Under the pieces are notes generated by a model, which saw only the letters and a program-made list of their open reading frames with translations, was not told where the DNA came from and ran no database searches. From Candidatus Poribacteria bacterium (GTDB lineage: Bacteria > Abyssobacteria > SURF-5), in assembly GCA_016215705.1 (NCBI GenBank), contig JACRIR010000179.1, positions 1 to 15,289 on the forward strand: a stretch of 15,289 nt of DNA. The letters are read 5' to 3'. Below are positions 342 through 7,684 of this stretch, in pieces; position 1 is the first letter of the stretch, and each line of letters starts with the position of its first letter. Both the position numbers and the translations under genes were made by a program.

Positions 342-703
342 TTTCTATCTTTTCGTAGGGCCTCATATCCTCATATGCGGTAGCGAACATCTCATTTGGG
401 ATAAAGAGGGGGTCGCGAGGAGATATGCTTTCCGTCTTTTCAGGATTTCCGCAGGATACGCCAGGATTCTTCCACAACAGGGCCTTGGAGGTCCGAATCT
501 ATTCATCGCTTCTTAACTGTCGATAGGAGAGGGACTTATTTGGGGTAACCGGAAATAGCGGTAGGACGAAGAAGCCACAATGCAGATATTTTTTGTCCTA
601 AATCGTTCCAGAATTCGTAATCCCTCTTACGGAGTGTGCGCTCATGCTGTTATAAGGCATTGCAAACAAAGAAGATATCTACTCCGGAAAGACAAATAGA
701 AAG

Positions 704-719
704 TGGCATGGGAGTTGCT
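704..719 (+). promoter_or_regulatory. Sigma-54 (RpoN) promoter for the cytochrome/MopE-like gene or its leader RNA
   Basis: The sequence TGGCATGGGAGTTGCT matches the RpoN consensus TGGCAYRNNNNTTGCW at every defined position. GG lies at 705-706 and GC at 717-718, with the obligatory 10-bp spacing. The predicted start site is near 730, exactly where the structured element at 731-854 begins. The next gene starts at 1004, giving a ~270-nt leader. Two similar sites lie at 6151-6166 (minus) and 6872-6887. Confidence 0.75.
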
Positions 720-730
720 CATATCCGAGC

Positions 731-854
731 GACATTGCGGAACAATAAAAGGCGCCATCGGCGAAGACTTTGGCGAGCCCGCTGATGGCGCGAGGGAATG
801 TGGGAATTGCTTTTCCCCTTGCGTGTGAGTATACCATTGTTCCGCAAATCTGTC
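731..854 (+). promoter_or_regulatory. Multi-branched structured 5' leader or small RNA candidate
   Basis: A perfect 12-bp inverted repeat, TTGCGGAACAAT (735-746) with ATTGTTCCGCAA (836-847), encloses about 90 nt. GACA (731-734) can further pair with TGTC (851-854) across a 3-nt bulge. Inside, GCGCCATCGGCG (752-763) pairs with CGCTGATGGCGC (780-791), 12 bp including one G-T wobble. A smaller hairpin GGGAA (802-806)/TTCCC (813-817) may form a third arm. The fold is a closed three-way-junction shape starting at the predicted sigma-54 transcript start. No T-run follows, so a leader is likelier than a terminated small RNA. The terminal repeats could also be those of a small mobile element (MITE). 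I do not recognise a known riboswitch class. Confidence 0.5.
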
Positions 855-1003
855 AAATCGTCAAAGGGGGGTGATGCGTTGCATAGATGGTCTTGAGTGT
901 CTCGAGGACGTGGCGCGGGTTTTTATGCATCATTACAGTTGGAATCAACGCCACAAGCGGATCGTAATTGTATTAACGAAGTTCACTTTTAGGAGCGGGA
1001 CAA

Positions 1004-2026
1004 ATGAGATTTCGAGTTCAATCAGGAATACTTGCGCTTTTTGCGGTGGCAATGTGTCTGACGCTTTTCGTGTCGAAGACGGCTTCAGCGGAACCTGGCT
1101 TTTTCAGCAGTTACTGCGCGGGCTGTCACTCCAATGACACGACTACGTGCAACGGATGTCATTCCCATGGAGTGTGGCGCGATTCGTCGCGAACGGTCAT
1201 GAATTTGAAGGCCACGACGGACCTCGCGCAGTACAGGCCGGGTCAGACAGTCAACGTGACTTTGAGCGGCGGCTATCGTACCGGTTGGATCCGGGCAAAG
1301 CTTTATGATCATACGGGGACGGAAGTTGCCAGGGTAACCGGTCCCACGGGTATGGGCGACGACGGAACGGGTTCTGCTGCACAGCAGTTTCCGGTGATAA
1401 TGTCTGCGCCTGCGCCTTCGACACCGGGATTCTATACGTGGAGCGCCGCATGGTTCGGCAACGCCTTCGACGTTAACTTCTTCAACAATTCCCAGCACAA
1501 AGAGGAAAAGGTGTCGACCAACCAGTTCGAGGTCATCGCGCCTCCTCCTGTCTGCGCAGATGCTGACAAGGATGGCTATCAGGATTCGGGCTGCAACGCC
1601 GACCCTGCTAAAGGCGGCGGCGATTGCGACGACACGAATCCGGCAGTAAATCCGGCCGCAGTCGAGGTCTGCAACGATGGGATCGACAACGATTGCAACG
1701 GACTCATCGACTCCGGCGATACGGACTGCACGATGTTCATACTGGCGCCCGGGAACGGGTCGCATCTTACGAGCCCGCCGACCTTCATGTGGAGCGCGGG
1801 CGGAAACAATCGGTTCAAGGCCGAATTTTCCTATGATCCGTTGTTCGGCTCCATCGTGTGGGCTACGCCGGTGCTATCGACCACGAGCTACACCATGTCG
1901 GCCTCCACGTGGAGCAAGGCGCCGAGCAACAAGCAGATATTCTGGCGCGTGCGCGGCGCAAACATAAACGTAACGCCGATCGTGGTCCAGACGGGTCCCG
2001 AAGTGGCGACGTTCTGGAAGAACTAG
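1004..2026 (+). CDS. Secreted di-haem c-type cytochrome / MopE-like metal-binding protein
   Basis: The 340-residue protein starts with a signal peptide (residues 1-29, cleavage after ASA). Two haem c attachment motifs follow, CAGCH (38-42) and CNGCH (49-53), with a further HSHG, so two covalently bound haems are likely. A beta-rich Ig/FN3-like region spans about 65-178. Residues 180-242 form a MopE-type segment: Asp-rich calcium-like loop (DADKDGYQD), then DCDDTNPAVNP and CNDGIDNDCNG, the hallmark of the copper-binding MopE/SACCP family repeat. The C-terminus (about 245-340) is another FN3-like module. AGGAG at 991-995 sets the start. The gene stands alone between a sigma-54 promoter region and a strong terminator. 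Periplasmic or surface electron transfer or metal capture is plausible, but the actual substrate is unknown. Confidence 0.85.
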   Translation: MRFRVQSGILALFAVAMCLTLFVSKTASAEPGFFSSYCAGCHSNDTTTCNGCHSHGVWRDSSRTVMNLKATTDLAQYRPGQTVNVTLSGGYRTGWIRAKLYDHTGTEVARVTGPTGMGDDGTGSAAQQFPVIMSAPAPSTPGFYTWSAAWFGNAFDVNFFNNSQHKEEKVSTNQFEVIAPPPVCADADKDGYQDSGCNADPAKGGGDCDDTNPAVNPAAVEVCNDGIDNDCNGLIDSGDTDCTMFILAPGNGSHLTSPPTFMWSAGGNNRFKAEFSYDPLFGSIVWATPVLSTTSYTMSASTWSKAPSNKQIFWRVRGANINVTPIVVQTGPEVATFWKN

Positions 2027-6871: not shown

Positions 6872-6887
6872 TGGCATGACTATTGCC
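6872..6887 (+). promoter_or_regulatory. Sigma-54 promoter of the exopolysaccharide operon
   Basis: TGGCATGACTATTGCC has GG at 6873-6874 and GC at 6885-6886 with exact 10-bp spacing. It matches TGGCAYRNNNNTTGCW at all but the last position. The predicted start near 6898 gives a ~79-nt leader before the first gene at 6977. XrtA-type loci are known to be controlled by a two-component pair, PrsK/PrsR, whose response regulator is a sigma-54 activator. That regulator would be expected nearby but is not in the window. Confidence 0.78.
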
Positions 6888-6976: not shown

Positions 6977-7684
6977 ATGACAAGACGGCTACTTATTCTT
7001 ATCGGCTTACTGATGGTTGGTTTGATCACGGGTTGCACAGCTTTTCATGGGGCCGGCACAGTTAGCGACTATCCGGTCGTTAGGGAAGAAACCTATCATC
7101 TGCAAGCGCCTGACGAAATAGAGATTTCGGTGCTGCCGCAGGAGGAGTTGAATAGGGGAGTTACAATACGGCCGGACGGGAAGATATCGCTGCCACTGAT
7201 TGGTGACGTGTTTGTTGAGGGAATGACTCCGATGGAAGTCTCATCGAAGCTGACCGAGGAGTTCTCAAAATACGTCAAGAATCCTGTGGTTGCGGTGATT
7301 GTGACCGGCTTTCACAGCAAGAAGGTGTATGTGATTGGAGAAGTGGAAAGGCAGGGTGTTTACCCTTACACGGGTGAAATGACCGCCTTTGAGGCAGTTG
7401 AGGAGGCGGGCAGTTTCACGAGGCGAGCGGCACTGGGACGCGTAATCCTTGTTAGAGGGGATCTGAAGAATCCGAAAGTAATTGACGTTGACCTGAAGCG
7501 AGTGGTCAAAGAGGGAATGAAGCAGAACGATCTGTTCCTGCAACCGGATGATATCGTGTATATACCGCCGAACGGTTTTGCGAAGGCGGGTTACGCTATT
7601 GAGCAAGTTTTATTCCCGTTCATGCCCATTCTGGGAGTCGGCAGTTCGCTTACTTCCGTCAGAAGCCTCGAAGAGACGTTCTGA
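6977..7684 (+). CDS. Outer-membrane polysaccharide export lipoprotein (Wza family, XrtA/PEP-CTERM type)
   Basis: The 235-residue protein has a lipoprotein signal with lipobox ITGC (Cys20). A polysaccharide export (Poly_export) domain spans about 38-112, including APDEIEISVLPQEELNR and IRPDGKISLPLIGDV. One SLBB domain follows at about 115-190 (KKVYVIGEVERQGVYP, then PDDIVYIPP). The hydrophobic C-terminal segment (205-222) resembles the helix that lets Wza-type proteins cross the outer membrane. At ~235 residues and one SLBB domain it is shorter than E. coli Wza and fits the small PEP-CTERM-associated exporters. GGGAGG (6965-6970) lies 6 nt before the ATG. It is the first gene of the operon, with the chain-length gene 50 bp downstream. 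Confidence 0.9.
   Translation: MTRRLLILIGLLMVGLITGCTAFHGAGTVSDYPVVREETYHLQAPDEIEISVLPQEELNRGVTIRPDGKISLPLIGDVFVEGMTPMEVSSKLTEEFSKYVKNPVVAVIVTGFHSKKVYVIGEVERQGVYPYTGEMTAFEAVEEAGSFTRRAALGRVILVRGDLKNPKVIDVDLKRVVKEGMKQNDLFLQPDDIVYIPPNGFAKAGYAIEQVLFPFMPILGVGSSLTSVRSLEETF

Follow-up and report, generated by a model that had tools for sequence, protein, structure and literature searches.

The locus and its sigma-54 promoter

The window analysed here is a stretch of 15,289 nucleotides from Candidatus Poribacteria bacterium, very probably a member of a lineage of uncultured deep-subsurface bacteria. Near its left end lies a gene whose product carries a signal and haem and MopE-type metal-binding motifs; the gene is preceded by a long leader (Table 1). 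The protein has paralogues in all three genomes compared in this work, namely the window's own genome (G000) and two family relatives (G001 and G002), which together represent three genera, and it shows no match to the PEP-CTERM motif. An XrtA/PEP-CTERM polysaccharide cluster makes up the remainder of the window and encodes PrsT, a PEP-CTERM protein, export and chain-length proteins, an ATPase, a kinase and an UpxY/NusG-like protein. About 90 nt ahead of the export gene at 6977 lies a second sigma-54-like site, TGGCATGACTATTGCC (6872-6887, plus strand), which deviates from the strict sigma-54 pattern in its last base.

Table 1. Features of the leader region and target gene (window coordinates)
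Feature	Position	Strand	Details
Candidate activator site CACAATGCAGATATTTTTTGTC	576..597	+	Resembles TTACAATTCGGATATTTTTTATC upstream of the G002:C105 copy (visual and MAFFT comparison)
Sigma-54 promoter TGGCATGGGAGTTGCT (TGGCAT-N5-TTGCT)	704..719	+	Predicted start ~730
Outer inverted repeat, left arm	735..746	.	p = 0.001; significant in the window only
U-tract CTTTTATTG after hairpin	743..751	-	First 9 positions: 7 T (minus side) vs 1 T (plus side)
Predicted antisense small RNA, ~78 nt	744..821	-	Start ~821, end within U-tract ~744; fold z -3.16
Predicted sRNA terminator hairpin	752..791	-	sRNA-strand loop GGCUCGCCAAAGUC (complement of 766-779)
23-nt stretch identical in the G000:C163 paralogue leader	760..782	+	Perfect complement of the window sRNA
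-10 box TATACT (extended TG), predicted antisense sRNA promoter	828..833	-	17-nt spacer; shuffle p < 0.001
Outer inverted repeat, right arm	836..847	.	Inside spacer of the predicted antisense sigma-70 promoter
-35 box TTGACA, predicted antisense sRNA promoter	851..856	-	Promoter scan
Target gene, secreted protein	1004..2026	+	CAGCH and CNGCH haem motifs, MopE metal-binding motif (PF11617, E 1.1e-10)

The sigma-54 promoter named in a preliminary description of this DNA is borne out by genome-wide counts, as the pattern TGGCAYN5TTGCW is strongly enriched across the three genomes (44, 38 and 39 occurrences vs 3, 6 and 9 with a reversed control). The transcription start follows from taking the GC at 717-718 as positions -13/-12. 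Each of the three genomes encodes dozens of sigma-54 activators, and the site is present in all five close paralogues with readable upstream DNA, with a deviating last base in one of them; an equivalent site also precedes two genes unrelated to the target family. With regard to the PrsK/PrsR sigma-54 regulon, the locus has the -24/-12 motif, and the genome holds no PrsR (TIGR02915) above the family cut-off (best 452 bits, cut-off 502.6). The candidate activator site is weak when scanned as a lone pattern. A sequence similar to TTACAATTCSGAT... (576-597, plus strand) precedes the sigma-54 site by approximately 110-140 nt in three or four of the copies described below. Further downstream, a G-run, AAAGGGGGGTGATG (865-880, plus strand), recurs in several paralogue leaders regardless of whether the hairpin is present or absent, at roughly 100-150 nt ahead of the start codon.

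A hairpin conserved in five sigma-54 leaders

The preliminary description depicted positions 731-854 as a closed three-way junction that starts exactly at the sigma-54 start and would serve as a cis-regulatory leader or a stable small RNA. Its central 12-pair hairpin (752-763/780-791) is well founded, with a single G.U among the 12 pairs and a z of -3.3 when folded alone; the fold of the region 720-860 has a z of -3.34, equalled by 1 of 200 shuffles. The outer 12-bp repeat is likewise perfect (TTGCGGAACAAT paired with ATTGTTCCGCAA), and about one flank shuffle in 1000 yields a helix of this quality, while the third hairpin, GGGAA...UUCCC (~803-817), is present and weak.

Further copies of the hairpin were identified in two ways. 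A DNA search returned the G002:C105 copy and, within the window's own genome, another one upstream of the C163 paralogue; inspection of all sigma-54 leaders added those at G002:C126 and G001:C120. Searched against the three genomes, a covariance model built from the five copies (R1) gave strong matches to these alone (E 4.8e-15 to 1.8e-8), the next match having an E of 0.8. All five sit just downstream of sigma-54 sites in a single orientation. Three precede paralogous MopE-type cytochrome genes, another a locus where a small ORF containing CxxCH stands together with a multihaem cytochrome gene (Paired_CXXCH), and the remaining one a glycosyltransferase gene. The proposed association with secreted cytochrome/MopE-like genes stands, the hairpin being tied to their sigma-54 promoters. 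The stem covaries, with two-sided changes in four stem pairs vs none or one when the partner strand is slid. Three further paralogue leaders have a sigma-54 site and lack the hairpin, which is therefore not required for such promoters.

The closed junction fares differently from the hairpin. The outer helix is significant in the window only, nothing comparable being found in the other four copies (p 0.75, 0.20, 0.12 and 0.08), and the junction was therefore rejected as a conserved unit. The exact coincidence of the structure's edge with the sigma-54 start does not recur either, since the edge of the hairpin lies anywhere from about +11 to +35 in the five copies. A hammerhead-like CUGAUG string in the right arm was dropped as a candidate, as it is merely stem sequence and is absent from C163, and by-eye inspection of the leaders revealed no short ORF consistent among the copies.

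As the preliminary description had recognised no known RNA class, so did Rfam, c-di-GMP riboswitches included, yield no match at the gathering score (best E 0.015, far below cut-off), and a riboswitch or other known class was rejected on this basis. The best-conserved part of the hairpin is its loop, GACTTTGGCGAGCC on the sense strand. Elsewhere in the genome this pattern is no more frequent than a control (7 matches vs 7), and an exact-pattern scan for it across the genome contig collection gave chance matches only, within unrelated sequence.

Approximately 385 further genomes were searched, and outside the family these contain look-alikes only, the best of which are in G266 (E 4.8e-5 and 2.4e-4). 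In this genome, which belongs to another phylum, L303 (1495-1555, minus strand) holds a terminator-like hairpin whose loop, ACUCGGCAAAGUUAUC, almost matches the loop of the G002:C126 copy. This hairpin follows a MazF/PemK-like gene at a distance of about 200 nt and has no good promoter, and the resemblance may be due to chance. A different conserved leader or sRNA is seen in all three genera at L172 (1501-1640, minus strand), L204 (201-340, plus strand) and L226 (201-340, plus strand). This element directly follows a sigma-54 site, comprises two hairpins around TTTCTCCTCATTGGGCTGGGTG..CACCCAGCCTCCTCTCCTTT with an exposed, anti-Shine-Dalgarno-like CUCCUC/UCUCCUUU, and has no match in Rfam.

A predicted antisense sRNA gene on the minus strand

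The strand opposite the leader carries what reads as a complete small gene. In four of the five copies a near-consensus sigma-70 promoter points into the hairpin from the minus strand (TTGACA-17-TATACT, TTGACG-17-TATAAT, TTGACA-17-TAAAAT and TTGCAA-17-TAAAAT), with a spacer of constantly 17 nt, a -10 box that ends 36-40 nt ahead of the hairpin and a shuffle p <= 0.001 in each case. The first nine positions after the hairpin hold 7, 7, 7 and 8 T on the minus side of these four vs 1-2 on the plus side, the U-tract of the sRNA strand corresponding to an A-rich run ahead of the hairpin on the sense strand. Given this minus-strand promoter and a U-tract confined to the minus side, the hairpin is most likely the intrinsic terminator of an sRNA of about 78 nt, which is predicted to fold into a small 5' hairpin followed by the terminator hairpin. 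Nothing like the antisense promoter was found in the three hairpin-free paralogue leaders. An unbiased scan of 122 sigma-54 sites detected the antisense promoter-terminator unit at these four only, against a background of 4 in 2066 random strand-windows, and no such unit in the sense orientation (0/122). Judged as a cis-encoded antisense sRNA, the element thus has its own opposite-strand promoter in 4/5 copies and its own intrinsic terminator, on the minus side only, also in 4/5. A test based on wobble pairs favoured neither strand.

A model of the whole sRNA gene built from three copies (R2) recovers its sources at about 1e-20 and matches G001:C120 (0.003 in a local search) and C163 (0.34 in the whole genome, 0.004 locally) weakly. 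C163 is the only copy of the five to have lost the antisense promoter and U-tract.

The anatomy of the sRNA gene and its association with sigma-54 leaders are thus supported by sequence. The structure is real and conserved, and a minus-strand antisense sRNA gene explains it best, in preference to a closed-junction leader that starts at the sigma-54 start. Of the two roles first envisaged, that of a small RNA is the one upheld, with the gene apparently placed on the opposite strand under its own sigma-70 promoter and terminator. The element is accordingly likely to be a sigma-70-driven, intrinsically terminated antisense sRNA gene that lies within a sigma-54 leader. As the palindrome is also present in the sense leader, a second role in the mRNA is possible.

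Proposed mechanism and alternative explanations

In sequence, the predicted sRNA is the complement of roughly +15 to +92 in the sigma-54 mRNA leader, and about 91 nt separate its promoter from the sigma-54 promoter towards which it points. The sRNA probably acts as a brake on the cytochrome gene. It is proposed that while the sigma-54 activator is idle, constitutive synthesis of the sRNA would hold the gene silent, both through collision of convergent polymerases and through pairing of the sRNA with any leader that is made. Pairing would be initiated by a kissing interaction between loops, at the conserved loop of the terminator hairpin, CUCGCCAAAG. Strong firing of the sigma-54 promoter would override this silencing, and the terminator would halt antisense transcription just before the sigma-54 promoter and in this way protect it.

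Other functions can be envisaged for the same hairpin. It could work in the sense mRNA as a structured 5' leader of sigma-54 transcripts, that is as a riboswitch, a protein-binding or a stability hairpin. Its position at about +10 to +35 of the transcript in all five copies, the covarying stem and the loop that C163 retains after the loss of its antisense promoter all agree with this, but it leaves both the four near-consensus antisense promoters at a fixed distance and the minus-side-only U-tracts unexplained, and with an outer junction that is not conserved and no Rfam family match it is considered quite unlikely. The U-tracts could also belong to a simple intrinsic terminator that shields the sigma-54 promoter against read-through on the antisense strand and produces no dedicated sRNA. 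A dedicated sigma-70 promoter 36-40 nt upstream in 4/4 intact copies and the conservation of the loop make this very unlikely.

The loop also bears on how the sRNA might act. Its sequence has been kept, something that an RNA acting purely as a cis-antisense would not require, and this favours a real sRNA that acts mainly in trans on unrelated mRNAs, its placement opposite a sigma-54 leader being either incidental or a means of coupling its level to that promoter. Against this, every copy lies opposite a sigma-54 leader, the loop complement is not enriched elsewhere and Hfq was not found, and such a role is deemed unlikely. Scarcely credible is a mobile repeat, such as a MITE or REP-like palindrome, that landed near these genes by chance. 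A palindrome at several loci would fit, yet the scattered copies that the preliminary description named as a sign of a MITE were not found: the three genomes hold five copies only, all at sigma-54 leaders, in a single orientation and at a fixed place relative to the promoter. Copy number and placement together refute it.

A possible trans target at the C163 paralogue

The preferred antisense sRNA would act on its own leader, and the orphan copy at C163 suggests a wider reach. Apart from the 23-nt identity listed in Table 1, the leaders of C163 and the window align poorly, and an identity of this length in such a background points to trans pairing between the paralogues. The computed duplex of the window sRNA with the C163 leader lies 10 sd beyond shuffles, and as the loop is kept between the loci the window sRNA can probably pair with the C163 leader as well. 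By sequence comparison, the C163 leader is a possible trans target of the window sRNA. Trans action is mildly weakened by the failure to detect Hfq in any of the three genomes. G002 carries two intact copies, whose loops, UUUGGCGAGCC vs UUUGCCGAGGC, differ by a paired G/C swap that would lower cross-talk, although this is one case only. It may tentatively be imagined, and as a whole is rather doubtful, that antisense sRNAs with conserved kissing loops form a network over sigma-54-dependent extracellular cytochrome and polysaccharide genes, in which the changed G002 loops insulate and the orphan C163 leader is regulated in trans.

Relation to known systems and significance

RNAI/RNAII, CopA/CopT and Sok are short, sigma-70-driven antisense RNAs whose hairpin loops seed pairing with a complementary leader. 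The sRNA predicted here is likewise short, sigma-70-driven, furnished with hairpin loops and directed at a complementary leader. Unlike these plasmid and type I antitoxin RNAs, its targets are chromosomal genes for secreted cytochromes and a glycosyltransferase, and no toxin or replicon was seen.

The nearest studied precedent appears to be RnaG of the Shigella flexneri icsA gene, a 450 nt RNA of a single locus that is transcribed from one of two convergent promoters 120 nt apart and acts by kissing-loop pairing, transcriptional interference and attenuation, the last at a terminator of the sense leader (PMC5394118). Like RnaG, the element described here is, as predicted from sequence, an antisense RNA with a strong convergent promoter inside the 5' leader of its target. 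It differs from RnaG in its length of about 78 nt with a terminator of its own, in its sigma-54 target and in its occurrence at several loci in several genera. A sense terminator of the RnaG type is not found in the window, G002:C105 or G001:C120 copies, the only candidates being at C163 and G002:C126; since this terminator is not conserved, the comparison lends no support to an RnaG-like attenuation step.

In its sigma-54 promoters, long leaders and XrtA/PEP-CTERM polysaccharide region the locus also resembles PrsK-PrsR control of PEP-CTERM genes (Haft 2006, PMC1569441; PepA, PMC9850573); the passages on which this comparison rests describe no leader or antisense RNA. A literature search of partial coverage found no description of an antisense RNA against a sigma-54 leader, and as far as these searches show, there is no earlier account of antisense RNAs that directly oppose sigma-54 leaders and are conserved from genus to genus. 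The arrangement recurs in related genera at cytochrome and sugar-polymer genes, and its C163 paralogue offers a natural setting in which to see whether an antisense RNA acts in trans. If real, the arrangement would constitute an RNA brake on an activator-dependent promoter of surface cytochromes, in deep-subsurface bacteria in which no Hfq was detected.
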